64,000 bases of DNA from a virus. This document shows, piece by piece, positions 33,029-62,805 of the stretch. Each line of letters starts with the position of its first letter. Position 1 is the first letter of the stretch. Location of the stretch: the IMG/VR virus record IMGVR_UViG_3300018080_000003, positions 1 to 64,000 of that record. The stretch is one strand, 5' to 3'. The position numbers were made by a program, and so were the translations under genes. The notes beneath the pieces are model-generated. The model had not been told where the DNA came from, searched no databases, and worked only from the letters and a program-made list of their open reading frames with translations.

Positions 33029-33106
33029 CATCCCTGAACTCAGGTCAGCTGGTTTCGAACACAGCGCGGTTTGACCCTGGAGTGCCTCGCCGGAGGTGCG
33101 TCCGAA

Positions 33107-35356
33107 GTGTCCCGCACGAAAGCTCTGACCCGACCCATCACTCGCAAGCAAGCGAGGTCGTACAACCGAACCGTCCCAAACGGTCGCGGTGTGACGGCAC
33201 TTGCTGAGGTGAACGGGAAAGGCGCTTACAAGCGGCGCTACCAGGCCACTCGCCGGCTCCTGAAGAACGGCAGCGGGAGTGACCAGATGTACACAGCGGC
33301 CCAAAAGCGCGCGATGAAGAAGATGAGCCCGGCTCAGCGCGCATCTTTCAAGAAGATGCTCAAGCGCGCGCCCTCGATCGCAACGCTTGAAAAGAAGCGG
33401 AAGGCCTCGGCGAAGCGCAAGGCCGCTCCCCAGCGGATGAAGTCGAACGGTCGACGAAAGTCGACGACCACGCGCTCAAAGATGACGCCGAACCGGCGCA
33501 AGACGCGCGCTGGGTCCACGGCTCCTCGGAAGTCGGATTTTATCGAGGCGCAGATTTCTCGTGGCCGCACCAAGAAGCAGGCCGAGTCTTCCTGGAAGCT
33601 CGCGCATGGCCGCCACTACAGCAAGACGGCCGCGAAGGGTGCTGCCAAGCGCAAGCGCCGTCGCGTCTACGGCAAGGGCAAGTACAAGGCTGTGAAGGCC
33701 CGGATTGGTCCCAAGAGCCGTTTCACCTACAAATACACCTCCAAGAGCCGGCGCAGCGGCAAGGAGTCCCTGCGGGACATTCCGGACCATGCGCTCCTCG
33801 GGTTCAAGACCCGCAAGGCCTATCTGGAGGTCGTCCGCGACATCGGCGAGTGGGGCCTCCCCCCCAAGCGCGCTCGGCGGGCGAAGGCGCTGGAGAAGCG
33901 CCTTGATCGTCTCGCAGCTCGAAGAGAGCGTGCTGCCGAGAGAGCCGCGAAGCGCATCAGGGCGGGTCGCGGCATGTTCACACCGAACGATGGGAGCAGC
34001 GCGCTCTCGTACGAGGAGTTCGAAGACATGAAGATGCGTCGAAACATCAGAAAGAAGTCGACCAAGAAGAAGGCGACTCGCAAGAAGACGACCGCGAAGC
34101 GGACTTCGTCGGCGAAGCGTCGTGCCGCGGCCAAGAAGGCTGCCGCGACCCGGAAGCGCAACGCGGCGAAGCGGAGCGCTGCGGCCAAGAAGGCGGCTCG
34201 GACCCGGAAGCGGAAGGCGACTGCCAAGAAGCGCACCACCAAGCGCACCACCAAGCGCACGACCAAGCGTCGCACCACGCGTCGCGTACGTCGGACTCGT
34301 GTCGGGCCGCGCAGCGCAGCGATGCGTCGTCGCAAGGGCAGCGTGAGCGTGAGCTACGCGGCCAACAAGCCGAAGCGTCGGAAGAAGGCCGCCAAGAAGC
34401 GCACGTACAAGAAGACCATCACGGTCGGTCGTCGTGGGCACAAGGTGCGCATTCGGTACCGCGCGAACCGCATGTTCAAGCGCAACGAGGGCTTCGTCAG
34501 CCAGCTGACCAAGAGCCTCAAGCTTGGCGCCGTGGTTCTCGGTGGCTACCTCACGCATCGCGTTTTGACTCGCGTCATCGACGACAACGTGACCAGCAAG
34601 ATCGGAGCGCTCAACGAGGGCACCCTCGGCAAGTACCGCACCCTCATCTCGGGCGCGGCGACTGCGGCCATCGGTATCCCCGCGGCCATCGCTGGTTCGC
34701 GCGCGGCCAAGATGCCCGATATCGCGGCTCCCATCGCAGGCGGCATGGCTGCCAGCCTCATTCAGTCGCTCATCGTGACCGTCCTGGGCGAGACCGCTCC
34801 TGAGTACGCCGGCTACTTCAGCAACTACGCGAACGCGGGTGGCACGGCCACTCCCGGCGGGGTTCTCGGCAGCTACTACACCCTTCCCCAGGCGGGCATG
34901 GGTTCGTACTACGAGTTCCAGCCCCATCAGATCATGCCGGCTGCCGGCATGGGCCAGCTCACCCAGGCTGCTGCGGGCATGGGCCAGCTCACTCAGGCTG
35001 CTGCGGGCATGGGCTCGCCGATGCTCACCCAGGCTGCTGCGGGCATGGGACAAGCGATGCTGACCCAGGCCGCTGCGGGCACCGGTGAGTACGTGGCTTA
35101 CGCCGCGAACGGCATTGGCGAGTACGAGGAGACTTCGGTTTCCGCGTCTCCCATGATGGTGGACGAGGGCATTCACCCGAACCTGCACAGCGCGGAGCAG
35201 GCTCTCACCGTGGCCGAGGCCGCGGCGGGCGTCGGCGCTGCCGACATCCCCCTCCAGTCGACCGTGGAGCCCACCGTCATCGCTGATCCGATCAGCGATG
35301 CGCCCAGTGGCTCGCGTGCCGGCGTCTTCCAAGGCGGCGACGGCATCTTTGCCTGA
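33107..35356 (+). CDS. Histone-H1-like basic protein fused to membrane segments and GMG repeats
   Basis: The GTG at 33107 has GGAGG 10 bases ahead and is preferred over a TTG at 33071; length is 749 residues. Roughly residues 1-450 are extremely rich in Lys, Arg and Ala. They include AKKAAATRKRNAAKR-type units and KRTTKRTTKRTTKRRTT, as in H1 tails and bacterial HC1-like proteins. Residues about 470-580 hold hydrophobic Gly/Ala stretches (LKLGAVVLGGYLTHRVL, GAATAAIGIPAAIAG, AAPIAGGMAASLIQSLIVTVL). Then come GSYYTLP and four GMG-x-LTQAAA repeats. It likely condenses DNA and ties it to the virion membrane, a combination not known to me. Confidence 0.85.
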   Translation: MSRTKALTRPITRKQARSYNRTVPNGRGVTALAEVNGKGAYKRRYQATRRLLKNGSGSDQMYTAAQKRAMKKMSPAQRASFKKMLKRAPSIATLEKKRKASAKRKAAPQRMKSNGRRKSTTTRSKMTPNRRKTRAGSTAPRKSDFIEAQISRGRTKKQAESSWKLAHGRHYSKTAAKGAAKRKRRRVYGKGKYKAVKARIGPKSRFTYKYTSKSRRSGKESLRDIPDHALLGFKTRKAYLEVVRDIGEWGLPPKRARRAKALEKRLDRLAARRERAAERAAKRIRAGRGMFTPNDGSSALSYEEFEDMKMRRNIRKKSTKKKATRKKTTAKRTSSAKRRAAAKKAAATRKRNAAKRSAAAKKAARTRKRKATAKKRTTKRTTKRTTKRRTTRRVRRTRVGPRSAAMRRRKGSVSVSYAANKPKRRKKAAKKRTYKKTITVGRRGHKVRIRYRANRMFKRNEGFVSQLTKSLKLGAVVLGGYLTHRVLTRVIDDNVTSKIGALNEGTLGKYRTLISGAATAAIGIPAAIAGSRAAKMPDIAAPIAGGMAASLIQSLIVTVLGETAPEYAGYFSNYANAGGTATPGGVLGSYYTLPQAGMGSYYEFQPHQIMPAAGMGQLTQAAAGMGQLTQAAAGMGSPMLTQAAAGMGQAMLTQAAAGTGEYVAYAANGIGEYEETSVSASPMMVDEGIHPNLHSAEQALTVAEAAAGVGAADIPLQSTVEPTVIADPISDAPSGSRAGVFQGGDGIFA
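34951..35082 (+). repeat. Tandem repeats encoding GMGxxLTQAAA
   Basis: Four in-frame units lie end to end: two of 30 bp (34951-34980 and 34981-35010, one base apart) and two of 36 bp. Each encodes a Gly-Met-Gly start and LTQAAA. Near-identity suggests recent expansion by slippage. Confidence 0.8.
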
Positions 35357-35364
35357 GCCCCACC

Positions 35365-35388
35365 GGGGCAGCCTTTCGGGGCTGCCCC
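35365..35388 (+). terminator. GC hairpin after the histone-like gene
   Basis: GGGGCAGCC and GGCTGCCCC form a 9-bp stem with a 6-base loop, 9 bases after the TGA. No T-run follows, so it may act as a weak terminator or as an RNA-stabilising 3' structure. A second 7-bp hairpin (CGGCTGA/TCAGCCG) follows at 35412-35430. Confidence 0.5.
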
Positions 35389-35477
35389 ATCGTCCAACCC
35401 AACAGATTCCACGGCTGAATTGGTCAGCCGTCGAAACATCAACCACAGAACTGCGGACCGAAGAGGAACCAGGCCTC

Positions 35478-35512: not shown

Positions 35513-36268
35513 ATGGCCAAGTTGACCAACGTCCGTGAGCGTGTACATCAGCCCTTCCGGGACTCGCTCATCCGCACCTCCGGCTACAGCGCCGGCTCGC
35601 TCGACGACCGCACCGACCTGTTCACCCAGGCCGGCAAGTCCGACGGTGAGACCAACCTCAAGCAGGGCAGCGTGCTGCCCAGCGACCAGTCGATGGTCGT
35701 CCTCGCGCTTCGCGCCTTCCTCTGGTTCCGCGCTCCGGTCGCCCGTTCGGCCGCGACGCTCGGCGCCAGCACTGGCGTGAACGGTGACTACTTCATCACC
35801 GCTGGCAACGAGGCCGCCGCCGTGAACCTGCTCAACGGCAGCGTTCCCGGCGACTACCACGACGTGCACCGCCTCTACTGGCAGGCCTCGGAGCAGCTGC
35901 TCTGGAGCTTCGGTGCTGGAGACAAGTTCTCCCTCACCAGCATGCCGTCCAGCTACTTCCCCTGGGGTGGTGGTCTGAGCGGCGACGTGGGCGGCGCGAC
36001 CGACCTCGTGCACTGGAACAACGGCACCCCCGACCAGGCTGGCATCCTCCGCCTGGCCCGTGCCGTGCTCATCCCCCCGCGCCAGAACATCCGTACCGCG
36101 GCCACGATCGTCCGTCTCCCCGACGGCGGCAACGGTTCGGTTCCTTTCGGCGTCAACCAGGGCTCGCGCAACATGCTGAGCCTCCAGGACAACCTGAACG
36201 CGGTCGACCTTGTCAACAAGGTCATCGCCTTCTCGTTCGACGGCCTCTTCAGCCGCGACGTCCAGTGA
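35513..36268 (+). CDS. Candidate major capsid protein
   Basis: This is a 251-residue protein from the ATG at 35513. The chain is beta-rich with no membrane helix: QSMVVLALRAFLWFRAP, DKFSLTSMPSSYFPW, ILRLARAVLIPPRQNIRTAA, and a C-terminal VIAFSFDGLFSRDVQ. The RxxxLIPPRQN strand after a Gly-rich loop, and the closing strand with DG-x-x-RDVQ, recall jelly-roll capsid proteins of membrane-containing phages. It alone is framed by a TATAAT box and a strong terminator, as expected for the most expressed virion gene. The fold is inferred from sequence character, not matched. Confidence 0.65.
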   Translation: MAKLTNVRERVHQPFRDSLIRTSGYSAGSLDDRTDLFTQAGKSDGETNLKQGSVLPSDQSMVVLALRAFLWFRAPVARSAATLGASTGVNGDYFITAGNEAAAVNLLNGSVPGDYHDVHRLYWQASEQLLWSFGAGDKFSLTSMPSSYFPWGGGLSGDVGGATDLVHWNNGTPDQAGILRLARAVLIPPRQNIRTAATIVRLPDGGNGSVPFGVNQGSRNMLSLQDNLNAVDLVNKVIAFSFDGLFSRDVQ

Positions 36269-36304
36269 AAACCGGCGGCCTACAGAAGGTCGCCCGGTGA
36301 TTTG

Positions 36305-36345
36305 AGGGCCGGCTCAGCGCGGGGCTGGGTCGGCCCTTTCTTCTT
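36305..36345 (+). terminator. Strong rho-independent terminator
   Basis: AGGGCCGGCTCAGC (36305-36318) pairs with GCTGGGTCGGCCCT (36324-36337) as a 14-bp stem, allowing two G-U pairs, with a 5-base loop. It is followed by TTCTTCTT. It lies 37 bases after the capsid candidate stop. Confidence 0.78.
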
Positions 36346-36407: not shown

Positions 36408-37550
36408 ATGGATCCTCGAATCAAAGCAATTCAGCAGCAGGCCTACGAGCAGGGGCTCCTTCAGGGGCAGCAGCAGGCTCGACTGAACGACATGGGTCTT
36501 CAGCAGGCTGCGACCGAGCTTCGCAAGGAGTTCGACGCCAAGATGAACCGGATGGCAGGTGGCCTCCGGAAGCAGATGACGGATCACAGCGCCTCGGTGC
36601 ACGAGAAGCTGGGTCAGATCCAAGCTGCAGCTGACAGCATCTCCATCACCGGCGGCGGAGAGGTCGGCTACAACATGCGGGATGAGGGCAACCTGGTTCG
36701 CCCCGGAAACACCCGCATCGAAGACATTCCAGGTCGGCGTGTTCCCTACGTCTACTCGGTGGACATCTTCATCGAAAACAACACCACGAGCGTTCGTGAG
36801 GCGAGCTTGACGATCAGTCAGGAGGGCCCGTTCGTCGCGGTGAAGCGGATGGCTATCTTTCAGAGTGCCTACGAGTTCCAAGCGACGGACCCAGCTTCGG
36901 GTAACTTGGCTCGCTTCGCAGGCCGTTCGTACGGCCGGTACCGTCCGATTCACTCGGCCTGGGACCTTTTGGATGCGCAAAGCAACGCCGTGACGGACAG
37001 CAACGGTTGGTGGGTTCAGCAGAAGGCTGAAGCGGCTTCAGCTGGCGTGGGCAACCCGGTTGCAACGGCTGCGCTGAGCCTTCCGAGCAACAGCAGCAGC
37101 TTCCGCACGATGGAGTTCGATGGTCGCATCGAGGTCATCAACGCGGGCAGCAGCTACCCGCGCCAGAACAAGGAGATCCCTTCGGCGTTCTGGAGCAGCT
37201 CGATCAACTCTCCTTGGGACCTCGGTGCCCTGGACTTCTTCGAGCGTGGCGAGGTTGTCACCTTCAAGGTGAATCCGACGCACGTGAACAATCCGCCCGC
37301 GGGGAACATCCAGAGCGACTGCGTTCTTCCGAATACCTTCAACGGTGGCGATGGCTGGCCCTTCTTGGAAGGCCAGTACGACCTTCACGAAGGCATCTGC
37401 ACCCCTGAGGGCGCGACCATCGGCGAGTTGGCCGCTCCTCAGCGTGTGAACGTGGTCGCAACGGACCCCATCCAGCGCCTTCCGGATGGTATCCTCACGT
37501 TGGCCTTCGAGGGCTATCGGATCATCCAGCCCATCGGTCCGGCCGCCTGA
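36408..37550 (+). CDS. Capsid-associated or vertex protein, 380 aa
   Basis: ATG with AAGGAG 10 bases ahead. Residues 1-85 are a Gln/Ala-rich coiled coil (QQQAYEQGLLQGQQQARLND). The rest is beta-rich with strands such as VYSVDIFIENNTTSVREASL, FRTMEFDGRIEVINAG and a closing DGILTLAFEGYRIIQP. This end resembles the last strand of the protein at 35513. A virion protein with a coiled-coil base and jelly-roll-like body, perhaps a vertex or second capsid protein, is inferred. It directly follows the terminator and is coupled to the next gene by a 10-base gap. Confidence 0.62.
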   Translation: MDPRIKAIQQQAYEQGLLQGQQQARLNDMGLQQAATELRKEFDAKMNRMAGGLRKQMTDHSASVHEKLGQIQAAADSISITGGGEVGYNMRDEGNLVRPGNTRIEDIPGRRVPYVYSVDIFIENNTTSVREASLTISQEGPFVAVKRMAIFQSAYEFQATDPASGNLARFAGRSYGRYRPIHSAWDLLDAQSNAVTDSNGWWVQQKAEAASAGVGNPVATAALSLPSNSSSFRTMEFDGRIEVINAGSSYPRQNKEIPSAFWSSSINSPWDLGALDFFERGEVVTFKVNPTHVNNPPAGNIQSDCVLPNTFNGGDGWPFLEGQYDLHEGICTPEGATIGELAAPQRVNVVATDPIQRLPDGILTLAFEGYRIIQPIGPAA

Positions 37551-37560
37551 GGAGTGAAGT

Positions 37561-38460
37561 ATGGCGCATCGACGCAGAAAAAAGTCGCCCAATCTCGGTA
37601 CTGTGCCGGGTCAGGTGGTTCCGATCTCAAACGGGGGTCATCAGCTCGTTTCCAAGGGCGCAGCTCAGACCCTTCTGCGTGGTGAGATTGCGCGTGCGCT
37701 GCAGGACAAGGACGACTACCTCAGCACTTTCGAGGGACAGCAGGCTGGTGTTCCAGGAATGGGCTCGGCGCCTGAGGTTCGGCATGAGCCGGCTGGCGGC
37801 GTCTTCACCAAGTTCCTTCACCCGGCTTTCACCATCATGGAGTTCCTCCGGCGCTCGTTGCCGGAGGAGGGCTGGTTCGACCCGGGCGTGAACCCCCGCA
37901 ACCCGATCCAGTTCCAGCTTGGAAGCTTTCAGGTTCCAAGCGGTCTGGCCCTCTGGCTCTACGACTACGAGTACAAAGTTTTCCGTCCTTCTGGGGTAGA
38001 CCCGGGAGACTTCATCCCGGCTGAGGTCGGTCGCTACAGCAATCAGATCGGTTTCGATGTGACGCTGAGCGGTAAGAGAGACGCGCAGCTCAGCATTCAG
38101 CTCGACCCTCAGACGACGAGTCTTTCTCGTCAGGAGTTCGAGCAGCAGGGCAACACGGGTGGTGCAAGCATCTTCGGCAATCCTCCGACGGCATCTAGCG
38201 CGTTTGATCGCGCCACGGCGAACTCTTTCGCTTCGACGGCCGGGCCGGGAACGTCGCTTTTGCCCAACCGTCCGAACAAGTTTGGTCCTCGGGGCGGCCC
38301 GTGGACTCTGGTGGCAGACGAGGGCACGCGTGTCGCGCTCAACGTCGTCATCTTCAACCGTATTCGTTCTCCCTTGGCGGCCGTAGAGGGTCGCTTGGGC
38401 GGGTACTTGATTCAGCGGCAGGTGAGCAGTTCGCTCATCAACCGTGTCCGTCCGCGATGA
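37561..38460 (+). CDS. Second capsid-type protein, 299 aa
   Basis: GAGGAG precedes the ATG. A basic start (MAHRRRKKSPNLG) suits contact with DNA or membrane. From about residue 75 the chain is beta-rich (FQLGSFQVPSGLALWLYDYEYKV, IGFDVTLSGKRDAQLSIQL, GTRVALNVVIFNRI) and it ends in QRQVSSSLINRVRPR. The size, basic arm and strand pattern fit a minor or second major capsid protein. Viruses with two single-jelly-roll capsid proteins have adjacent genes like this. No motif proves it. Confidence 0.6.
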   Translation: MAHRRRKKSPNLGTVPGQVVPISNGGHQLVSKGAAQTLLRGEIARALQDKDDYLSTFEGQQAGVPGMGSAPEVRHEPAGGVFTKFLHPAFTIMEFLRRSLPEEGWFDPGVNPRNPIQFQLGSFQVPSGLALWLYDYEYKVFRPSGVDPGDFIPAEVGRYSNQIGFDVTLSGKRDAQLSIQLDPQTTSLSRQEFEQQGNTGGASIFGNPPTASSAFDRATANSFASTAGPGTSLLPNRPNKFGPRGGPWTLVADEGTRVALNVVIFNRIRSPLAAVEGRLGGYLIQRQVSSSLINRVRPR

Positions 38461-38584: not shown

Positions 38585-39253
38585 ATGTACACCTCTGTAG
38601 GACAGCTATCCGGATACGGACCTTGGGGCCGCAATGTTGCGGAGACCGATGAGGTGTACGTGTGGCGCGGTATGTTTGATGGTGCGCAGATCCTCACGCA
38701 GCAGGACCTGCAGGCCATCGTTGCAAGTGTCGGGAAGAACCAGAGTCTGGACTTCGACATCCGCGGCGTAACGGTCAAGCCTCTGGGTGGCAGGAATAAC
38801 AAGGTTGAGGTGGCCTTCACCACGAAGATCCCTCGTATTTACGCGCTCGACCCCGACTTCATCACGGATAGCGCTTCCAGCATTGCTCGGAAGCTAGAAG
38901 CTGACCTCGCGTCTCGCTTCGGACCGTTCCGTGTCGAGGATCCGAAGTTCCTCGCGATCGATGACGATGAGCCGAAGCATCCCGCCTTGGACTTCTGGCT
39001 GTCGCACGCGACCCTCTGGGATCAGCCTCTCATCGGAGATGCGATCCCCACCCAGGCCTGGGAGAAGTTCCAGGGCATGTACAAAGGATCTGTCGATCAG
39101 GGAATTGCCCTGAAGAAGTGGCAGAACCCCTCCGACCCGAGCTCGGGCAATGGAGACACTGAGAAAGACCATACCATCTTGTGGGCCATCGGCGGCGCAG
39201 CCGTGCTGCTTGGAGGCTTCTACTTGATGCGAAAAGGAGCAGCAAAAAGATGA
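38585..39253 (+). CDS. Tail-anchored protein with MYTSVG start, 222 aa
   Basis: The ATG at 38585 is chosen because the product then begins MYTSVGQ like the proteins at 6675 and 44584, although no ribosome site is visible. Residues 20-180 are soluble with a possible beta-alpha domain (QDLQAIVASVGKNQSLDFDI, KVEVAFTTKIPRIYALDPD). A Ser/Gly linker leads to the helix TILWAIGGAAVLLGGFYL and the end MRKGAAKR. It is a virion-type membrane protein by context; the family is unknown. Confidence 0.7.
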   Translation: MYTSVGQLSGYGPWGRNVAETDEVYVWRGMFDGAQILTQQDLQAIVASVGKNQSLDFDIRGVTVKPLGGRNNKVEVAFTTKIPRIYALDPDFITDSASSIARKLEADLASRFGPFRVEDPKFLAIDDDEPKHPALDFWLSHATLWDQPLIGDAIPTQAWEKFQGMYKGSVDQGIALKKWQNPSDPSSGNGDTEKDHTILWAIGGAAVLLGGFYLMRKGAAKR

Positions 39254-39843
39254 GTTACGGTGGAGTTGGTTCGTACTACACCCTTCCTGGCATGGGTTCG
39301 TACTACACCCTTCCTGGCATGTCCGGGTTTGGCTCGACGGCCGACACCTTCGATGCCGCGGCGGTGTGGGCAGACGTGCAGCTTGGCGGCTCGTGCTACG
39401 GCGCGCAGGGCGTCATCAAGGGCTCGAACGTCGGCGCGTGCAACGCGGCTGGTGGTCGTGCGGCTCGCGCGATCCAAGCGGCGCTCAACGAGATGGGCTA
39501 CGGCCCGCTGGCCGTGACGGGCAAGTGGGACGGCGCGGTCTCGGGCAAGTGGAAGCGTTTCCTCTCGGATCACGGCCTTCAGCCGGGACCGGGCCTCGGT
39601 GTCTCCGAGCAGGGCCTTCTCCTGATGGAGAAGCTCCTGAAGGAAGGCAAGACCCCCGGGCCCAACAAGCCCATCGTCTACGACAAGCAGGGCGACCAGT
39701 ACATCCCGCGTGATGCCGGACCCGGCACCGCGACCGCGGGCATGGGCGCTGGTGGTCTACTCCTCGGCGTTCTCGTCATCGGTGGACTCGGCTACGCGGC
39801 CTACCAGAGCGGCAAGAAGCGGAAGGGTCGACGCGTCCGATGA
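39250..39843 (+). CDS. Tail-anchored protein with GSYYTLPGM repeats and PG-binding-like domain
   Basis: This 197-residue protein is coupled by ATGA. It begins MSYGGVGSYYTLPGM and repeats GSYYTLPGM once; a 27-bp perfect DNA tandem lies at 39268-39294 and 39295-39321. Residues 35-130 resemble a peptidoglycan-binding domain (RAIQAALNEMGYGPLAVTGK, then KWDGAVSGKWKRFLSDHGL) with two Cys. The end is a membrane helix (GLLLGVLVIGGLGYAAY) and a highly basic tail. It could hold the virion to the cell wall, or help an entry complex cross it. The GSYYTLP tag is shared with the histone-like protein. Confidence 0.72.
   Translation: MSYGGVGSYYTLPGMGSYYTLPGMSGFGSTADTFDAAAVWADVQLGGSCYGAQGVIKGSNVGACNAAGGRAARAIQAALNEMGYGPLAVTGKWDGAVSGKWKRFLSDHGLQPGPGLGVSEQGLLLMEKLLKEGKTPGPNKPIVYDKQGDQYIPRDAGPGTATAGMGAGGLLLGVLVIGGLGYAAYQSGKKRKGRRVR
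39268..39321 (+). repeat. 27-bp perfect tandem repeat encoding GSYYTLPGM
   Basis: Two identical 27-base copies stand end to end in the gene at 39250. A TACTACACCCTTCC core recurs at about 34874 in the histone-like gene, where it encodes the same peptide. Confidence 0.8.
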
Positions 39844-49251: not shown

Positions 49252-49519
49252 TGAAGACGCCCTTCCGGGCTCCGCGTCGTTCCAGGTTGGGAACGACACT
49301 TACATCGTCTGGGTTCCTTCTGTCACCGCGCTGCGGTCGATACGCCCGACGAGCTTCAATCCTCAAGGGGAGACTGCAATCTATTCTGGTCCGACTGAGA
49401 TGATGATCTTGCCCCTCCCGATAGGGGAGGTGGCCGCGAAGATCGAAAAAGAGCGAAAGGGGTACTTGGAATGGCGAATGAAGCTGAAGAAGCGGGTGAA
49501 GGCTGGGCAAAGCAGCTAG
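49244..49519 (+). CDS. Small protein, 91 aa
   Basis: GTG start at 49244, 6 bases after a TATACT at 49232-49237. The chain looks beta-rich (SASFQVGNDTYIVWVPSV, TEMMILPLPIGEV) with a basic C-terminal helix (AKIEKERKGYLEWRMKLKKR). It overlaps the glycosyltransferase gene at 49471 by 49 bases. Unknown function. Confidence 0.52.
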   Translation: MSSEDALPGSASFQVGNDTYIVWVPSVTALRSIRPTSFNPQGETAIYSGPTEMMILPLPIGEVAAKIEKERKGYLEWRMKLKKRVKAGQSS

Positions 49520-50805
49520 CTGGCTACCATGGCGCGTACAACGCGTCAGATCAAGATCGAGCCTTTCACCCGAGCACTCGTGCAGCTGAGCACGAGAAGG
49601 GTGTTGCTTTCATCTGTCCGTGGGAGGATCCCTACTCGGGGTTCGCGGAGCATTCTCGCCGCCTCGCTCGTGCTCTCAACGACGCGGGGCTTCCCACGCA
49701 CATGCGCTCGCTCGATGCGAGCATGCAGATGCACACCCAGTTCGAGCTGGGCGGCAAGGACAAAGTCGACCTGCGTGAGCAGTACCACGACCTGCTCGAC
49801 AAGAGCATCAAACATCTGATGGTCAGCGTCTACCATCTCGTCCCCGACGATGCTGAGCTTCAGGTTCTGACGACACACCGTCATCTGACGCCGGAGCAGC
49901 TGGAGTGGGCGAACAGCTACAAGATCATCTCGACGGTCTGGGAGCGGGATCGGATCAGCCCGGCTGCGACTCAGGCGTTGAACCGCGTGGGACAGGTCTG
50001 GACGGCGACGTCGCAGCACGCAGAAATGCTGGCGGAGTGCGGTGTGAACTCCGACAAGATCAAAGTCGTCCCGCTCCCCTATTCGAAGATCGATCCCATC
50101 TTCGACTTGCGAGGCCGCAAGCGCATGAAGGGCGTCCCTCGTTTCTACCATATAGGAAAGTGGGAGCCGCGGAAGGCCCAGCACGAGATGCTGGGTTGTT
50201 TCCTCCGCGCCTTCGAGCCTGGTGAAGCGAAGTTTTACCTGAAGACGAGCGAGACGTCGCCGGACTTCGGAGACTACCCGCGCAGCCCTGATGCGTCGAT
50301 CGAGCGCTGGCTGACGAAGGAGGGCCTCTCCGGCAAGTGGTCGTTGGATCAGGTCAACCAGAACATCCACGTCATCAAGAAACGGATCAGCCCAGAACAG
50401 ATCTTCCAGCTGCATCGGATGGGGGACATCTACTTGTCGCTCAGCCGTGGTGAAGGCTGGGACATGCCCGCCTACGACGCGAAGCTTGCGGGCAATCTCC
50501 TGGTCTGGACGGCAAGCGGTGGCCCGCAGGAGTACGCAGGACAGGACAGCTTCTTCGTGGACTCCCTCGGCACTCAGCCGGCTCATCCTTTCTACAAGTG
50601 GGACGACGCAGAGTACCTCAGCTGGGACTACGTTCACGCGGTCAAACAGATGCAGAAGGCGGCAGGAGAGGTCAACTCGACGCTGAAGCCGCCTGACCTT
50701 CCACCTCTCTCTGACTTCGATCGCTTCAGCCCAGAGTGCGTTGGTCAGCTGATGAAGTCGTTCATCGAAGAGCTGGTCGAGCAGAATGAGGAGCGGTGGT
50801 CATGA
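49471..50805 (+). CDS. GT-B glycosyltransferase, 444 aa
   Basis: Residues 40-60 (GVAFICPWEDPYSGFAEHS) match the N-terminal strand and Gly-loop of GT4-type enzymes. The C-terminal half has KWEPRKAQHEML (nucleotide-sugar site region), IYLSLSRGEGWDMPAYDAKLAG (donor-binding E-x7-E-like segment, quoted in part) and SGGPQEYAG. GT-B enzymes transfer sugars from nucleotide donors to acceptors. With three further transferase genes nearby, it probably decorates virion spikes, DNA bases or host surface. Target unknown. Confidence 0.78.
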   Translation: MANEAEEAGEGWAKQLAGYHGAYNASDQDRAFHPSTRAAEHEKGVAFICPWEDPYSGFAEHSRRLARALNDAGLPTHMRSLDASMQMHTQFELGGKDKVDLREQYHDLLDKSIKHLMVSVYHLVPDDAELQVLTTHRHLTPEQLEWANSYKIISTVWERDRISPAATQALNRVGQVWTATSQHAEMLAECGVNSDKIKVVPLPYSKIDPIFDLRGRKRMKGVPRFYHIGKWEPRKAQHEMLGCFLRAFEPGEAKFYLKTSETSPDFGDYPRSPDASIERWLTKEGLSGKWSLDQVNQNIHVIKKRISPEQIFQLHRMGDIYLSLSRGEGWDMPAYDAKLAGNLLVWTASGGPQEYAGQDSFFVDSLGTQPAHPFYKWDDAEYLSWDYVHAVKQMQKAAGEVNSTLKPPDLPPLSDFDRFSPECVGQLMKSFIEELVEQNEERWS

Positions 50806-51113
50806 TGTGGGTTGTATCTTTTGCAGTTTCTGAGGACAACGTCGTCTTGATGGGCACCTTCTCCGAGCGGCTTGAAGCTAAGCGGTTTGGCGAGAGGGTC
50901 GCCAGGCGACAGGGCTACAAGGGCGAGCTGTCTTGGCATGATGGCTCCGAGACGTTCTGGTTCGAAGAGCCAGGACTCGAAGGCGGCTTCTTCATCACGC
51001 AGCCCGTCTCCAGACTCACCCATGAAGGCAAGAAGGCACAAATCGACATCAGTCGACCTAGCTTCGAGAAGGTGTTCGATCTGATGGAGGAAGAAGAATG
51101 CCAAACCGCGTAG
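50802..51113 (+). CDS. Small protein, 103 aa
   Basis: The ATG at 50802 overlaps the upstream stop by 4 bases. A strand-rich start (MMWVVSFAVSEDNVVLMGTF) is followed by a helix (ERLEAKRFGERVARRQG) and strands. It overlaps the next gene by 16 bases. It lies between two glycosyltransferase genes and may assist them. Not recognised. Confidence 0.52.
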   Translation: MMWVVSFAVSEDNVVLMGTFSERLEAKRFGERVARRQGYKGELSWHDGSETFWFEEPGLEGGFFITQPVSRLTHEGKKAQIDISRPSFEKVFDLMEEEECQTA

Positions 51114-54100
51114 GCATCGTCACCGTCGCTGATAGTCGCAAGGGGCTGTGGCGCGACATGGAAGTCCTTAGCTGGGCCGTCAGCATGCCGCCCCCCAGGG
51201 CGGAAGGCCAGCGTGCTCAAGGTTTGAGCGTCTTCTGTGCGAAGATGAGTGACCGCGTCTCCCCTTCGGTGGTGAACAGCTTGCCGGAGGGCGGTAGCGC
51301 GGGGGCACCCCTGTTCCAGGGCACCTTCGAAGCGTTTGCACAGACATGTGATGTGGTGGTCTTCTTCGAGACCTTCTACATCAACCTCGTCAAGCATCTG
51401 GTCGAGAAGGGTAAGCGCGCGATCTACGTCCCGAACCTCGACTGGGCGACCTGCTCAGACGGAGGCTCGATGGCGTGGAAACGTCAGATCAAAGAGCTTC
51501 AGAACTCGACTGACAAGTTCCAGGTCTGGGCTCGGCAGCCTTCGATTGAGCATGCGCTTTTGGAGCATGGTGTTCGGAGCGAGCATGTCCCTTGGTCGAT
51601 CCCTGATGAGATCGTTCGTGAGCCTGAGGTCAAGGCTGACGATCAGCCCTTGAAGTTCTTCGTCAACGCAGGCTTCGGAGGCCACAAGGGACGTCGCGCG
51701 GTGGACCTCGTGCTCAAGGCCTTTGCGAAGGCGAAGAAGCGCGCCCCGATGGAGCTAATCGTCAAGAGCATCAAGCCTCTCGTCGAGTACGTCGGAGATG
51801 CGATGGGTTGCATCGACGAAGACGTCGGTGTCATCGAGGGCTTTAGTCCGCGGACTCAGATCGATCAGCTGATGAAAGAGGCTGATGTTGTAGTTAGTGT
51901 CTCTCGCTGGGAGGGGTTCGGTTACGGTGTCATCGAGGCACTTCATGCGGGCAAGCCAGTGATCACACATGGTGGTTGGCCTGTTGGTGACGCGGTCACT
52001 CACAAGCACAACGGTCTCCTGGTGGAATGCGCATCTCAGGGGAAGTTCAACCTGACGCCTCACTGGGAAGCTGACGTCGACTCCATCGCCGATGCGATGG
52101 TCGAGCTTGTGACAGATCGCGATCTGTTGCGTCGTCTCACCGCACCCTGCCCGGCGGAGCTTCAGGCGCGCCAGTACGCGTTCATGCTTCGCGCTCGCGC
52201 TCTTCTCTTCGAGGAGCCTGAGCCGCGGGTCGTCATCTTTGGGAGCGAGCAGCATTTAGCTCAGCCTTCTGAGAAGTACTGGCAGATGGCGCTCGAAGCT
52301 CACGGCTATCGGGTGGACTACCAGCTGGCGAAGGGCGGCAACTACGGCGCGACTCTCGCGAAGTGGTGCGATTTCATCCTAGTGGGCAAGGCGCGCTTGG
52401 AGACGCTCAAGAAGGTCCGTGACAACAACGCACACGACGTGCCGGTGATTGTCTGGCATCACGACTACGGGACGGTTGTCAGCGAGCTTCACGACAACTT
52501 CCTCAAGTACGGCGATCTCGTCTTTGCTCCCTACGAGCAGGACGACGTGAACTATCTTCTACCGGGTCCTCGCTCGGGTGGCGACCGCGGCCGGGGCCTT
52601 CGCCGCACCTACAAGAAGCGGGCGGAGCCCGAGCATGACGTCGTGTTCATCGGTGGGGACTCCTTCGAGCGGAAGGCGATCCTCAAGCAGCTGAAGGCTG
52701 AGGTTGGCCTCGTAACGTTCGGCCCTGGGATGGCACACCCGCCTGTGTACGACGCCTCAGCTGACGACGTCTACAGCAACGCGAAGATCGCTCTCAGCCT
52801 TTCTCGCTTCAACGACACGCCTGGCTACACGAGCAACCGGCTGTTTCACGCAGCCGCGCTTGGGACGGCTGTCTTCTCGCACACATTCCCTGGTGATCGA
52901 CAGCTTTTTCCAGAGAAGCTTGCTGGCATCTTCTTCGTCCGTGGTGGCGACATGTCAGCGTCGATCCAGAAAGCGCTCATCGGCTGGGATCACCTCAAGG
53001 GACAAGCGCAGGAAGTGGAGAGCTACTGCTGGCGCCACCATTCTTGGCACGATCGGATCTACCAGATGGTCTGGCGGATCCACAAAGCCATGACGGACAT
53101 CCGAGACAAACGTCGCAAACGCAACCGGAAGAAGAAGCCGCCTCGCAACGCTCTGCAGTTCATCCCGAAAGGAAAGCCCATGGCACCCCCGAAGCCGCCT
53201 GTTGTTCAGACCCCTGACTGGAACGGACCGAAGAAGGTCAACATCGGATCTGGTCCGCGCGTCCATGCGGGCTACGAGAACATCGACGTGCGGCCGTTCC
53301 CTGGCGTGCGTCAAGTCGACTTGATGAAGGGCTTGCCGTACCCGGACAACGTTCTGCACGAGGTCCTGGCGGAGGATGTGTTGGAGCACTTCCGACCGGC
53401 GGAGCTGGTCAAGACGATCCTTCCGGAGATCTACAGAGTCCTCCGACCCGGCGGCAGACTGGTGGCGCAGATGCCCGACCTTCACGAGATGGTCAAGCAG
53501 TGGAAGCGTGGGGATGTTGACGATGAGATGATGTCGATGCGCATTCACGGTCGTCAGGACTATCCGGAGAACACGCACTACGCCTCCTACACCGAGGCGT
53601 CGATGACGAAGATCCTCAACCGCATCGGCTTTGGCACGGTGAAGCGTCTCGACACCCGGAACTGGAACATGGTGCTGGAGGCTCGCAAGGGCCCAGCGGA
53701 GGCTCCGCAGCAGAACCACCGCAAGGAGTTCAAGCCTCAGCCTGGCAAGGGCGACCAGACGGACTGGAACGCGTACTGGGAGCAGCGCTCACAGAAGATG
53801 GGACAGCTCTCGGTCACGCCGGGGAGCTGGAACGAGCTGCGTCAGCGCCAGGAGACGGACAAGCTCTTCAAGCTGATGGAGGTCGAGTGGCGCAAGCGTT
53901 CTGGCGCTGTCGTCATGGACTATGGCTGCGGCGTGGGCCGGATGTCGCGCAAGCTCCAGGAGGCGGAGGTCAAGGTCAAGGGTGTCGACGTGTCGCCGAA
54001 CATGGTGATGATCGCGCGGAAGAACGGCGTGGATGCCGATCTGATCGAAAACAAGCGCATCCCCTACGAGGACGACACCTTCGAGGGTCTCTTCGTCTGC

Positions 54101-54409
54101 ACCGTGCTGCAGCACATTCCTGACCTCGACCTCAAGGCAGCGGTGGAAGAGATCAAGCGCGTGCTCAAGCCGGGCGCTTTCATCATGCTCTTCGAGAACT
54201 GCGAGGGTCGCTACGGACGCACGTCTTCGAGTGGGCATGTCATTTTCCGTGAGCCGGGTGAGTATGCTTCTCTCTTCGAAGGGATCCAAGAGGTACTTCG
54301 CTACAACATCGAGGGCGAAGACCACGTCCTCATGTGGGGCACGCTCGCGGGCGAGCCTGAGGCGGAAGCCGAGGAGTCTGAAGGAGAGCCTGAAGAGACG
54401 GAGTCATGA
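51098..54409 (+). CDS. Four-domain enzyme: two glycosyltransferases and two methyltransferases
   Basis: GGAGGAAGAAG precedes the ATG; 1103 residues. Residues 1-370 form a GT-B domain with SVSRWEGFGYGVIEALHAG (267-285). Residues 377-660 form a CgeB/YkvP-like glycosyltransferase domain (VVIFGSEQH; later GYTSNRLFHAAALGT). A basic linker 664-705 follows. Residues 712-865 form an SAM methyltransferase (VNIGSGPRVHAGYENID, VLEHFRPAEL, VLRPGGRLV). Residues 889-1088 form a second one (VVMDYGCGVGRMS, VDVSPNMV, VLKPGAF). It likely builds and methylates a glycan in one polypeptide. Confidence 0.85.
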   Translation: MPNRVGIVTVADSRKGLWRDMEVLSWAVSMPPPRAEGQRAQGLSVFCAKMSDRVSPSVVNSLPEGGSAGAPLFQGTFEAFAQTCDVVVFFETFYINLVKHLVEKGKRAIYVPNLDWATCSDGGSMAWKRQIKELQNSTDKFQVWARQPSIEHALLEHGVRSEHVPWSIPDEIVREPEVKADDQPLKFFVNAGFGGHKGRRAVDLVLKAFAKAKKRAPMELIVKSIKPLVEYVGDAMGCIDEDVGVIEGFSPRTQIDQLMKEADVVVSVSRWEGFGYGVIEALHAGKPVITHGGWPVGDAVTHKHNGLLVECASQGKFNLTPHWEADVDSIADAMVELVTDRDLLRRLTAPCPAELQARQYAFMLRARALLFEEPEPRVVIFGSEQHLAQPSEKYWQMALEAHGYRVDYQLAKGGNYGATLAKWCDFILVGKARLETLKKVRDNNAHDVPVIVWHHDYGTVVSELHDNFLKYGDLVFAPYEQDDVNYLLPGPRSGGDRGRGLRRTYKKRAEPEHDVVFIGGDSFERKAILKQLKAEVGLVTFGPGMAHPPVYDASADDVYSNAKIALSLSRFNDTPGYTSNRLFHAAALGTAVFSHTFPGDRQLFPEKLAGIFFVRGGDMSASIQKALIGWDHLKGQAQEVESYCWRHHSWHDRIYQMVWRIHKAMTDIRDKRRKRNRKKKPPRNALQFIPKGKPMAPPKPPVVQTPDWNGPKKVNIGSGPRVHAGYENIDVRPFPGVRQVDLMKGLPYPDNVLHEVLAEDVLEHFRPAELVKTILPEIYRVLRPGGRLVAQMPDLHEMVKQWKRGDVDDEMMSMRIHGRQDYPENTHYASYTEASMTKILNRIGFGTVKRLDTRNWNMVLEARKGPAEAPQQNHRKEFKPQPGKGDQTDWNAYWEQRSQKMGQLSVTPGSWNELRQRQETDKLFKLMEVEWRKRSGAVVMDYGCGVGRMSRKLQEAEVKVKGVDVSPNMVMIARKNGVDADLIENKRIPYEDDTFEGLFVCTVLQHIPDLDLKAAVEEIKRVLKPGAFIMLFENCEGRYGRTSSSGHVIFREPGEYASLFEGIQEVLRYNIEGEDHVLMWGTLAGEPEAEAEESEGEPEETES

Positions 54410-56874: not shown

Positions 56875-59769
56875 ATGGATTTCGGTTCTGCTGGTATCAA
56901 GGGAAACGGGAAGGCACGTGCCTTTGAGTTCCCGGATGGCGTGGACGCTGAGGTGGCGCTCGCGGGTCGCGCTCGTCTTCGCTACAACGCTTTCACGAAC
57001 CAGCTTGAACTGAGCGTCAGTGGTAACCCTTACTTGCCTTTCACGGCAGGTGGCGGAGCGATTCCACTCAATGGAATATCCTGGGTAGACGGACGTAACG
57101 GGAACGATGGAACTGCCATTTATGGCAGTCAAAACAACCCCTTCCAGACGGTTCAAGCCGCCATCAACTCGGCGATTGGGTCTGGGTTCACGACTATCGG
57201 CATCGTCGTTCTTGGCGGAGATTACCCAGAGGACGTCGTCGTGCCGAACGTCCTCGTCGACACGCGCCTGGGGATCGTGGGCCTTGGCGGGGCGGGCGTC
57301 AACATCCGTTCGCTGACGGCCTCTTGTCCGACAGGTGCAGGTGTTCGACTTGATCTCTCGATCGAGTCGCTCACGTTGGGCACCCGAGTTGGTGGGGGCC
57401 AGACGGTAGCTCCTTTGACCCTTGTGGGGGACAACGGGAACTTGGAGGTGGAGACCCGTGGCGTGAACATGAACAGTTCGACGCCGAACATTCCTCCCTT
57501 CCAGACGTTGAACGCCGCTGCGACTGGCAACCTCGACGCCGTGATGGGAGAGTCGATTTTGCGCGCGACGGCATCTCCGGCGGCGGCCGTAGAGATGGCG
57601 TTTGGCGATGTCGAGTTTCGCGACATAACGCTTCGAGGCCTGGATACGACTCAGGTTCTGATCACGGGCCCGTGCAATTTCACGGGTTCAGACGTGGTGC
57701 TCCTCGCAGATGGTGCAGGCGGCAACCCTCTGATCGCTCACTCTGGGCCTTCTGGTCAAATCAACTTCGTCTCAAGTTTCTGTCAGCCCTCTTCGACGAC
57801 CGATGATTTTATCCAGGTCTCTTCTCCTGCGACGAGCGTTGTACTTCGCTCCTGCATCGTTGGAAGCAACGGTTACACCGGTCAGGTTCTTCTATCCGGC
57901 GGACCGGTCTTCTACAACTTTGTCAGCTCTGTAGACGGAAATCCTGTTCCGATTGTGGGTGCTGGCTTTGAGACTCGTTTTCAGAACAGTAGCCAGGTCC
58001 AGCACAACAGCACGACGGTCATCGGAACGCAGCCTGTCGATCAGGCCATGGACGACTTGCTCTTCGGGACGACGCAGATTGGAGCGCCCATCGTTGGCCC
58101 TGGCACCTTCGCCCTTGGAGATGATTCGACGATTCTCGTCGATACGGGTGCGGCTGTAACGCTGACGCTTCCGGCCATCACGACGCGGCCTCGCGGCAAG
58201 GCTTATCGGATCGTGGACGCGACGGGCGGCGGCACGCCTGTCACGATCAATCCGACGGGTGCAGATACCGTGAATGGCGGCGCGTCTCTTACGTTCACCC
58301 CTGGTGGCGCGAACGCCTCCATCGTCCTTCAGTCGGAGTCCGCTTCCACCAACTGGGCTCTGACCCAGGCGGATCCAACGACTGGCGGCGGTGGTGGTTC
58401 GACGATTCCTGTTGACCGCATCACCTACGTGAATCAGCTGAACGGCAACGACGCAACCGGTGTGGCGGGTGACATTGCTTTCCCCTTTCAGACTGTTCAG
58501 GCAGCGGTCAACGCGGCCATCGCGACTTTGGGCTTCAGTGCGGGCAACCTGGGCATCGTCGTTTCTCCTGGGTCCTATCTGGAAGATGTCGATATCGACT
58601 ACACGCTCAGTAGCGGGATGTATCTCGGCATTTACGGCGATGGTCACGCGGTGAAAATCCGGAGCATCAACGTCATCGGACCCAATATCCCGGTCGGTTC
58701 TCCTTTCTTCCAGGAGCTTTTCATCGGTGATCTCTGCATCGGCTTTCCCGAGGGCGCTGGCTTCTCTAGCCGCCCCGCACTTCAGGTCCGCGAGGGCCTT
58801 GCCCCTCTGAACGTTGTGCTCTCGAACGTGGGATGCTTCGTAGCAAACGGCAACGAAGACGTCGTCGTCATTGGCCCAGCCTCGACGGGAGGTGTCACAG
58901 TTGAGGCTGTTGGCGGCGGAGCTTTCGCGAATGACAACATCAACGCTGTGACGGGCCGCGCGCTGGTGATGGACACGGGTACCTTCCGGGGTACTGGCTT
59001 CAATCTTCAGTCTCGGAACGCCCCTGCGGTTGAGATCACTGGCGCCGCCATCTACAACGACCAGGGTTCTCGTATCGCTCAGGTGTTGGGCGTGGGAACG
59101 GACCCTCTAATCCGAACGACTGCGACGACGCTTCACCTCATCAGCCTGAACAACACGCAGCTCGTTCCGACCACGACAACGGTCGACGTCATCGAGACGA
59201 ACGACATCAACGCGGACATCACGTTGAACGATGTTCAGGTTCAGCTCATCGGTTCGTCTGGCAACATCAACATGACCTCGGGTGGCATCGTCAACGTTAC
59301 GAGCGCCTACGTCTCGCAGACGGGTCCTTGTCCCATTATCGGCGCCACGGTCGTGAACCTCGACCACCAGGGTTCACAGGTCGGCTACTCGTCCTCGACG
59401 GTCCTTGGTGACCGCGACATGACAGATGCTGTGACGCAGGTCGTACAGGGTGTCAGTGACACGGTGGCTCGGCTCACAGGTGGCGGCGCGTTCGCTGCTG
59501 GACCGGAGGAAGTCATTTTGGTGGCTGAGGGCGCCTCTCCGACGACCATCACGTTGCCTCTTCGGAGTACAGTAGTCGATGGTAAAAAGTACCGTGTGGT
59601 GGATGCGCTCCCTGCAGGTTCTGCGGGCATCACGATCGCTGCTTCTGGCGCCGATACTATCAACGGTGGCGCGACGTTTGTGATGACGACGGGCCCGAAT
59701 AACTACGTCGAGGTCATCGCTGAGGTGGGCGCTCCCTCGGCTTGGACGATCATCGGTATTCGTCCTTGA
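56875..59769 (+). CDS. Double beta-helix spike protein, 964 aa
   Basis: Residues 1-60 form an anchor domain shared with the next three genes (GIKGNGKARAFEFPDG, GRARLRYNAFTNQLELS). Residues 65-385 look like a right-handed beta-helix, starting NPFQTVQAAINSAIG. A cap domain follows (410-500: GKAYRIVDATGGG, GADTVNGGASL). A second helix and cap repeat the plan at 505-870 and 885-964. Such spikes bind or cut surface polysaccharides. The tandem duplication within one chain is clear from the repeated NGNDAT/QTVQAAVNAAI and ADTINGG motifs. Confidence 0.8.
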   Translation: MDFGSAGIKGNGKARAFEFPDGVDAEVALAGRARLRYNAFTNQLELSVSGNPYLPFTAGGGAIPLNGISWVDGRNGNDGTAIYGSQNNPFQTVQAAINSAIGSGFTTIGIVVLGGDYPEDVVVPNVLVDTRLGIVGLGGAGVNIRSLTASCPTGAGVRLDLSIESLTLGTRVGGGQTVAPLTLVGDNGNLEVETRGVNMNSSTPNIPPFQTLNAAATGNLDAVMGESILRATASPAAAVEMAFGDVEFRDITLRGLDTTQVLITGPCNFTGSDVVLLADGAGGNPLIAHSGPSGQINFVSSFCQPSSTTDDFIQVSSPATSVVLRSCIVGSNGYTGQVLLSGGPVFYNFVSSVDGNPVPIVGAGFETRFQNSSQVQHNSTTVIGTQPVDQAMDDLLFGTTQIGAPIVGPGTFALGDDSTILVDTGAAVTLTLPAITTRPRGKAYRIVDATGGGTPVTINPTGADTVNGGASLTFTPGGANASIVLQSESASTNWALTQADPTTGGGGGSTIPVDRITYVNQLNGNDATGVAGDIAFPFQTVQAAVNAAIATLGFSAGNLGIVVSPGSYLEDVDIDYTLSSGMYLGIYGDGHAVKIRSINVIGPNIPVGSPFFQELFIGDLCIGFPEGAGFSSRPALQVREGLAPLNVVLSNVGCFVANGNEDVVVIGPASTGGVTVEAVGGGAFANDNINAVTGRALVMDTGTFRGTGFNLQSRNAPAVEITGAAIYNDQGSRIAQVLGVGTDPLIRTTATTLHLISLNNTQLVPTTTTVDVIETNDINADITLNDVQVQLIGSSGNINMTSGGIVNVTSAYVSQTGPCPIIGATVVNLDHQGSQVGYSSSTVLGDRDMTDAVTQVVQGVSDTVARLTGGGAFAAGPEEVILVAEGASPTTITLPLRSTVVDGKKYRVVDALPAGSAGITIAASGADTINGGATFVMTTGPNNYVEVIAEVGAPSAWTIIGIRP

Positions 59770-59780
59770 GGAGGTGAGAG

Positions 59781-61301
59781 ATGGGTAGAGGAACAGTCGG
59801 TTTCAAGGGCCACGGGATCACGCGATCTCTGGAGTTCCCCAACGGGGAACTGGCCCCTGTTGCGCCTCCAGGTCGTGCTCGTCTTCGCTACAACGATGCG
59901 ACAAGTCAGCTTGAGCTGAGCATCTCCGGCGGCGCCTTTGCGCCTGTAGGCACGGGCGGCGCCACTGCGGCGCTGAGTTACGCGGCCTGGGTGGATGAGC
60001 GCTCAGGCAACGATGGCACGGCGGTGGTAGGCAACATCAACCTGCCATTCCTCACGGTCCAGGCTGCGGTGAACGCGGTCATTGCCCTGGGCAACCCAGA
60101 CGCATCGATTCTCATCTTGCCTGGCAATTACCAGGAGGATGTTGTGGTTCCGGCTGCCTTTGCTGACATCCAGATAGGCTTCTCTGGAGTGAGTGGTGCG
60201 AGCAATATTCGCTCGATCACGCTGAACGCTCCGGCGGCTCCTGCGGTCCGGGCTCAGTTCACGCTCAACGAGCTGACGCTGGGCAACCGTGTGGGTGGTG
60301 GGCAGACGGTTGCGCCTCTGGTGATCGTCAACGGTGACGGGGACACGGACGTCTTCGCAACGCAGCTGCAGCTCTTCACTTCGACGCCTAACATCGACTT
60401 GGTTCGAACTGAGAACAACACGGCTTTCGGTTTATTGACGGTCCAATTCAACGGCGGCCAGGCTCTAGCGACACCTGGGTCGGCGAACTCGCGAGCCTTG
60501 TTCTTGGAGGCGGGTACGATTCTGACGAACGATTTTCTCACCTTCTCGCAGACGGCTTCTGCGATTGAGATCGACGGCTTCGTTGCTCTGTTCGACGTGG
60601 GCTCGGTCTATCAGCAGAGCCTGGGCTCGGTGTCGCCTCTCATCACTTGCTCGCTGACGTCCTTCGCGTTCGTCAACCTTTTTGGAACGTCGCTCCAGCT
60701 TCCGACGGCTAACACCGTCATCGACCTGCCTTCTCCAGGCGCGAGCGTGAACCTCAACGGAGGCGTTGTTCAGTCGTTCGTGCATGCCGGCGCGGGTATC
60801 GCGACGCCCGGCACCGCGGCGGTGAACTACATCTCCGACTTGGCGGGCAACCGCCTCTCGGTGTCTGCGCTTTCTGGTTTGGGCCTCCTTCAAGGCGCCG
60901 AGCTGGTGGCCTTCGACTCGACGACGAACGTACTCCCTGCAGGCCTAACGGCCACCGAGGGCATCGATCGTGCCATCCAAGGGGTGAGCGACACGGTGGC
61001 ACGCATCACGGGCGGCGGCGCTGTGGCGGCAGGGTCTGAAGAGATCATCTTGGTGGACGAGCCTGCCCTAGCCACCACCATTCTTCTTCCGCTCCGAAGT
61101 ACGGTCGACGAGGGGAAGAAGTATCGTGTCGTCGATGCGACGCCGGCTGGTGCCGCTGGCATCACAGTGGCAGCTTCGGGCGCTGACACAATCAACGGAG
61201 GCCCTTCGACGGTGGTCACCTCTGGTCAGAACAACTACGTGGAAGTCATGGCGGAAGCTGGCGCGGCCACAAGCTGGGTGATTGTCGGCATTCGGCCCTG
61301 A
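59781..61301 (+). CDS. Beta-helix spike protein, 506 aa
   Basis: GAGGAGGTGAGAG leads into the ATG. The anchor (VGFKGHGITRSLEFPNG, GRARLRYNDATSQLELS) is about 60 residues. The beta-helix runs from NLPFLTVQAAVNAVIAL to about 400. The cap (EGKKYRVVDATPAGAAG, GADTINGGPST, NNYVEVMAEAG) ends VIVGIRP. It is a single-unit version of the protein at 56875. Different helix sequences with common ends suggest modular exchange of receptor-binding parts. Confidence 0.8.
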   Translation: MGRGTVGFKGHGITRSLEFPNGELAPVAPPGRARLRYNDATSQLELSISGGAFAPVGTGGATAALSYAAWVDERSGNDGTAVVGNINLPFLTVQAAVNAVIALGNPDASILILPGNYQEDVVVPAAFADIQIGFSGVSGASNIRSITLNAPAAPAVRAQFTLNELTLGNRVGGGQTVAPLVIVNGDGDTDVFATQLQLFTSTPNIDLVRTENNTAFGLLTVQFNGGQALATPGSANSRALFLEAGTILTNDFLTFSQTASAIEIDGFVALFDVGSVYQQSLGSVSPLITCSLTSFAFVNLFGTSLQLPTANTVIDLPSPGASVNLNGGVVQSFVHAGAGIATPGTAAVNYISDLAGNRLSVSALSGLGLLQGAELVAFDSTTNVLPAGLTATEGIDRAIQGVSDTVARITGGGAVAAGSEEIILVDEPALATTILLPLRSTVDEGKKYRVVDATPAGAAGITVAASGADTINGGPSTVVTSGQNNYVEVMAEAGAATSWVIVGIRP

Positions 61302-61309
61302 GGTGATTC

Positions 61310-62755: not shown

Positions 62756-62805
62756 GTGGGGATCAACAACTGGGTGGTGGTTTCTCGCCGTCCTTGAGGT
62801 AAGAA

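Follow-up and report, generated by a model that had tools for sequence, protein, structure and literature searches.

Virions of the Portogloboviridae, as described for Sulfolobus polyhedral virus 1 (SPV1), an archaeal virus with a 20-kb genome, have a VP1 nucleoprotein core surrounded by a lipid layer and a single-jelly-roll shell (PMC8459092). The double-jelly-roll viruses of prokaryotes have genomes of roughly 7-18 kb and share, besides the capsid protein, the FtsK-HerA ATPase as their most prominent gene; some of the membrane phages among them encode lytic transglycosylases (PMC5894146). The virus described here would resemble the Tectiviridae, Corticoviridae and their kin in being a membrane-containing tail-less phage with many membrane proteins (PMC5894146, PMC10589892), but differs from them in that genomes here exceed 100 kb and no FtsK-HerA ATPase was recognised. 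We analysed a 64,000-nt window (positions 1 to 64,000 of IMG/VR record IMGVR_UViG_3300018080_000003), in which one gene encodes a polycationic arm fused to a membrane domain. Polycations are familiar from other systems. The adenovirus core proteins V, VII and mu are basic and condense the genome, and one of them links the core to the shell; the tails of linker histone H1, the bacterial H1-like proteins HC1 and HC2, and AlgP are Lys/Ala-rich and of low complexity. The adenovirus proteins, which we compared by profile searches only, belong to a different virus and have no membrane domain; the H1-like proteins differ from the fusion family in that the latter has no globular domain or profile match to them, ranges from Lys-rich to Arg-rich, and has a membrane domain attached. 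We consider it moderately probable that the fusion protein is a virion membrane protein of a lineage of large, membrane-containing, tail-less phages, with the arm compacting the genome and the tail facing the capsid.

The fusion gene (P0001) occupies 33107..35356 on the plus strand and comprises 749 codons from a GTG start, with a Shine-Dalgarno-like GGAGG (33092..33096, +) about 10 nt 5' of the GTG. The sequence-only reading had described a single 749-residue protein with a basic arm, hydrophobic stretches and a repeat tail, and the ORF and its parts match that description. Division of the region into two genes with separate products is ruled out by the relatives examined, in which arm, membrane domain and tail are joined in one unbroken frame. 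We take an antisense ORF at 33476-35446 (656 aa) to be a composition artefact; homologs and dN/dS back the sense frame, purifying selection being apparent over regions of six pairs where it was computable (dN/dS 0.14-0.52). Among all ORFs of the 143,727-base record P0001 is the most basic, with 50 Lys+Arg in its best 100 residues; the runners-up, with 39 per 100 residues, are Arg-rich ORFs that are probably spurious. An internal ATG with an upstream AGGAG lies at 34028 (Met308 of the fusion), just before the most Lys/Ala-rich stretch, and initiation there could yield a truncated product similar to the short paralogs that we describe below for distant relatives. As a single query the fusion protein had no match among viral contigs or in a set of 50,697 phage records. 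No Pfam family (whole protein, E <= 1) or PHROG hit it; our literature search found no account of such a virus or protein either, and the family appears to be undescribed.

The arm (residues 1-452; 33107..34462, +) has a net charge of +138 and is composed of 17% Lys, 19% Arg and 14% Ala. Near its start is a conserved motif (residues 17-41, RSYNRTVPNGRGVTALAEVNGKGAY; 33155..33229, +) for which the family alignment gives a pattern of about SYxxxxPNxxGVTxIxxVNGxGAY. The stretch most like an H1 C-terminal tail (34110..34285, +) contains tandem repeats, with DNA units of 54 and 12 bases, that encode Lys/Arg/Ala/Thr repeats. These roughly 450 Lys/Arg/Ala-rich residues had been called H1-like, which stands as a matter of composition but not as a histone H1 domain, no Pfam or PHROG model having been hit at E <= 1; the Lys/Ala-rich, disordered-polycation character does fit the arm of this virus, as simple composition and not as homology. 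The arms of the relatives have 300-630 aa and net charges of +89 to +226 and vary from Lys-rich to Arg-rich (Lys 2-21%, Arg 8-39%); charge is kept, and Lys/Arg ratio and sequence are not. Such wide variation in Lys and Arg content argues that selection keeps charge rather than a histone sequence. As judged from its sequence, the arm is a low-complexity polycation of conserved charge with no histone H1 domain, and we infer from its charge alone that it binds DNA. No signal peptide or strongly hydrophobic N-terminal segment was found at the N-terminus of the fusion, so that a polycation of 450 residues should stay cytoplasmic.

Hydropathy places the hydrophobic segments at about residues 461-563. 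That these Gly/Ala stretches are membrane segments, as originally suggested, agrees with structure prediction: AlphaFold2, run with 25 family sequences, gives three long helices with pLDDT about 93, at residues 461-494 (34487..34588, +), 506-533 (34622..34705, +) and 537-563 (34715..34795, +). Counting against our preferred reading, the segments are Gly/Ala-rich and their Kyte-Doolittle hydropathy is only about 1.0-1.8. An RRNxF-like entry to the domain is conserved in the family. Foldseek searches with the domain gave no significant match, the weak ones being mostly membrane helix bundles, and an HMM of the domain matched a single gene in each virus, except that a short paralog was matched as well in a distant branch. 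With three membrane crossings, the two ends of the fusion protein would lie on opposite sides.

The remainder of the protein, a tail predicted to be disordered (residues 576-749, net charge -13; 34832..35353, +), contains GSYYTLP and the GMG-x-LTQAAA repeats, which at the DNA level form a tandem GMG/QAAAG array (34940-35081, +). Five G[ML]G and four QAAAG were counted, and neither count was reached in any of 10,000 shuffles. A short helix predicted with low confidence (residues 693-706; 35183..35224, +) overlaps a motif of the type DLDRxLTIAEAAAGVGA that is conserved across the family, as is the C-terminal end, RAGVFQGGDGIFA (35315..35353, +), which reads about PAGILQxGGxGVFG in the family alignment and GYAGGLFARNLFAGMF in the distant branch. 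Net charge of the tail in the family is near-neutral to acidic (-16 to +1). The sequence-only reading had noted that tail motifs are shared with membrane proteins, and indeed GSYYTLP recurs nearby as a tandem GSYYTLPGM repeat (39268..39321, +) within the product of ORF 39181-39843, which is anchored at its C-terminus and gives a weak peptidoglycan-binding match. Among 60 C-terminally anchored ORFs with GxG in the loci, 51 have a net charge of +2 or more after the helix, although this association is weak, since 23 of 33 C-anchored ORFs with no GxG also have a positive tail. In these other GxG-bearing ORFs the order is GxG part, helix, positive tail; the placement of the GxG side opposite the basic side holds there as in the fusion protein.

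Co-oriented with the fusion gene and 156 nt after it is the gene for a conserved 251-aa putative capsid protein, of the ERVHQPF family (35513..36268, +). We found no terminator in the 156-nt gap (which is 109-276 nt long in relatives outside the distant branch), and the terminator search placed a strong intrinsic-terminator-like hairpin at 36304..36338 (+), closing a two-gene unit; from this arrangement the two genes are apparently cotranscribed. The model of the 251-aa protein is beta-rich and of moderate confidence (mean pLDDT 67), and its weak Foldseek matches, none significant, include jelly-roll capsids and SPV1 VP4; the name capsid protein is thus our inference from a moderate model with no significant structural match. 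Apparent cotranscription with a putative major capsid gene bears on the idea that the fusion serves in DNA delivery, as a pilot or injection protein that leaves the virion together with the genome, its helices entering the host membrane and its polycation escorting the DNA. Membrane helices and polycation do share one chain, and among the products of the genome is an anchored enzyme acting on peptidoglycan that would suit entry, but likely cotranscription with the adjoining gene suggests high copy rather than use at a vertex, and the tail motifs are common to other anchored proteins of the module; we regard a delivery role as unlikely.

Two further genes complete a conserved four-gene module with the fusion and 251-aa genes, one at 36408..37550 (+), whose product has an N-terminal coiled coil, and one at 37561..38460 (+). 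Searches of Pfam, PHROGs and PDB profiles gave no recognisable homolog for the 251-aa family or for either of these, the sub-0.001 PDB match of the 36408 family being to the coiled coil only, and profile-profile comparison showed no relation of the 251-aa family to the other two. Judged by its genes, the neighbourhood is a structural-looking module with many C-terminally anchored membrane proteins. Net charges are -6 to +2 in the 251-aa family, -10 to +2 in the 36408 family and -6 to +24 in the 37561 family; with most capsid-module proteins close to neutral, the polyanion that the arm would most obviously pair with is DNA.

As P0001 had found no match, we reached its family through the neighbouring capsid-like gene. 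The 251-aa protein (which starts MAKLTNVRERVHQPF) as query gave 24 viral loci and two assembly contigs, and the 36408 family gave more. Where enough upstream sequence exists, the fusion is the next gene upstream of the 251-aa gene in 31 distinct viruses, on contigs of 9-298 kb (25 distinct sequences plus L045, L048, L058, L062, L064 and L069); in the distant branch direct adjacency is broken by a short paralog or by stray ORFs. A profile of the C-terminal half of the fusion found matches in 18 of the 18 larger records searched. A search for this domain fusion in metagenomes had been proposed at the outset, and the architecture proved to be conserved in the family, namely N-terminal motif, cationic arm, helical membrane bundle and disordered G[ML]G/QAAAG tail. 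The distant branch (L030-L032, L062, L064) has a second, shorter paralog just downstream of the fusion, with a basic N-terminus, a membrane domain and a similar C-terminal end. The constancy of the neighbourhood makes it very improbable that the fusion is no virion protein but acts in host takeover, compacting the host nucleoid or tying viral DNA to the cell membrane while it replicates: a polycation with a membrane domain would serve for that too, but all relatives have the gene beside that of the putative capsid protein, within the structural-looking module, and the GxG motifs are common to anchored module proteins.

Several of the relatives show individual features. The largest found is L062 (IMGVR_UViG_3300033233_000001, 297,749 bases), which has fusion, short paralog and capsid-like gene and in which no terminase was recognised. 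The capsid-like gene is duplicated in L012 (8650-9843 and 10001-10777), the first copy being enlarged by an insertion of at least roughly 100 residues. By eye, homing-endonuclease-like genes were recognised in the interval from the fusion to the capsid-like gene or close by (L069:6240-6842, L068:266-868) and upstream of the L014 fusion (at about 7442). Relatives of the module occur in assemblies labelled Methanomicrobiales and Myxococcales (L035, L036), although binning of such short contigs is weak host evidence. One candidate relative, L005, was rejected as a chance 23-residue match in an unrelated contig.

In our preferred reading, the arm would bind viral double-stranded DNA non-specifically, neutralise its charge and help to compact it; the helices would anchor it in an internal membrane, with the arm pointing toward the DNA; and the GxG tail with its conserved end would face the capsid, so that one molecule links genome, membrane and shell. 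The N-terminal motif may tag the protein for incorporation or touch a partner. This largely matches the sequence-only suggestion that the protein could condense the genome and fix it to the inner face of a virion membrane, a suggestion that is plausible and gains strength from the comparison of relatives. As to amounts, the 143,727 bp of the record contain about 287,000 phosphates, and about 2,080 copies at +138 would be enough to neutralise all of them.

A possible objection to this orientation comes from assembly of the PRD1 type, in which the virion vesicle is envisaged as pinching inward with its cytoplasmic side toward the capsid. With such a vesicle a cytoplasmic arm would point toward the capsid and not the DNA, against our preferred reading. 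The conflict would be reconciled if the membrane wraps cytoplasmic DNA, or if assembly starts from open membrane sheets. The same topology favours an electrostatic cement, in which the arm would attach to the capsid's inner face or to lipid head groups instead of DNA, and both the disordered tail and the arm could bridge membrane and shell; yet the module proteins are mostly near neutral and no acidic surface of matching amount was seen, lipid head groups being left as a possible partner. We rate such a cement a little below the delivery role in probability.

We also searched for packaging genes. Of the genes looked for as signs of tailed phages (Caudoviricetes), large terminase was found in none of 24 records with PF03237 and none of 18 with PF04466, and portal (PF04860) in none of 18, in searches that detected their positive controls and in records that may be fragments. 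Likewise, no match exceeded the cut-off for the FtsK packaging ATPase (PF01580, 24 records) or the A32 packaging ATPase (PF04665, 18 records), again in possibly fragmentary records. Those sub-threshold FtsK/A32 matches that were inspected proved to be DnaB or SNF2 helicases, or spurious ORFs, and a Walker A census of this genome recognised no packaging ATPase of either type. These results suit an alternative in which the fusion is a virion membrane protein acting mainly in assembly or packaging, its arm gathering cytoplasmic DNA at membrane patches or recruiting the replication complex, with the capsid forming around it and no permanent condenser. The arm, with no strongly hydrophobic segment at its N-terminus, would naturally be cytoplasmic, and the fusion and capsid genes are linked; the amount of charge, however, would go unexplained. 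This alternative overlaps strongly with our preferred reading, from which sequence alone does not separate it, and we consider it rather improbable, if less so than the delivery role. More speculatively, and only as a tentative proposal, these viruses may be a new lineage of large (about 110-298 kb), tail-less membrane phages that package DNA with no dedicated motor, many membrane-anchored polycationic arms coupling DNA capture, membrane wrapping and capsid assembly.

Enzymes for entry bear on the type of virion. A candidate virion enzyme for crossing peptidoglycan is a protein with a transglycosylase domain and, at its C-terminus, a hydrophobic segment (L006:1607-2296, minus strand; record 64604-65296). 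From their predicted domains, this protein and the peptidoglycan-binding-like proteins point to a bacterial host, and a tail-less virion with a membrane is suggested by the peptidoglycan enzymes, together with the large number of GxG proteins anchored at their C-termini. Two kinds of PHROG match with tail-related names were set aside: a 'baseplate hub' match covers only a lysozyme/transglycosylase-type domain, and the 'tail protein' matches are short stretches within fibre-like proteins (two of the paralogs described below).

Of the known systems, the Portogloboviridae would be the closest in concept. Shared features would be a membrane beneath an icosahedral shell and a genome condensed by protein, both putative here; the 251-aa protein also has a weak, non-significant structural match to SPV1 VP4. 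SPV1, however, has a separate VP1, whereas here the arm is fused to the membrane domain and genomes are roughly 110-298 kb; the fusion would combine nucleoprotein and membrane linker. No sequence similarity was seen in the phage-record collection, where neither the fusion nor the 251-aa protein had a match. If our preferred reading is true, one conserved protein does jobs that other viruses assign to nucleoproteins on the one hand and to membrane or minor capsid proteins on the other, and a life-style like that of the double-jelly-roll viruses would extend to genomes of 100-300 kb. The fusion and the ERVHQPF protein form a marker pair for finding these viruses, which offer a testable case of genome packing in a large tail-less phage with no recognised packaging ATPase.

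Finally, paralogous fibre-like proteins are encoded at 56875-63777, L006:9857-10504 and L009:1459-4779; they share the N-terminal motif GFKG..R.LEFP....APxGRARxRYN and are perhaps receptor-binding spikes. Also in the window, a 1103-aa protein with glycosyltransferase and methyltransferase domains (51098-54409) adjoins a glycosyltransferase-like gene (49471-50805).
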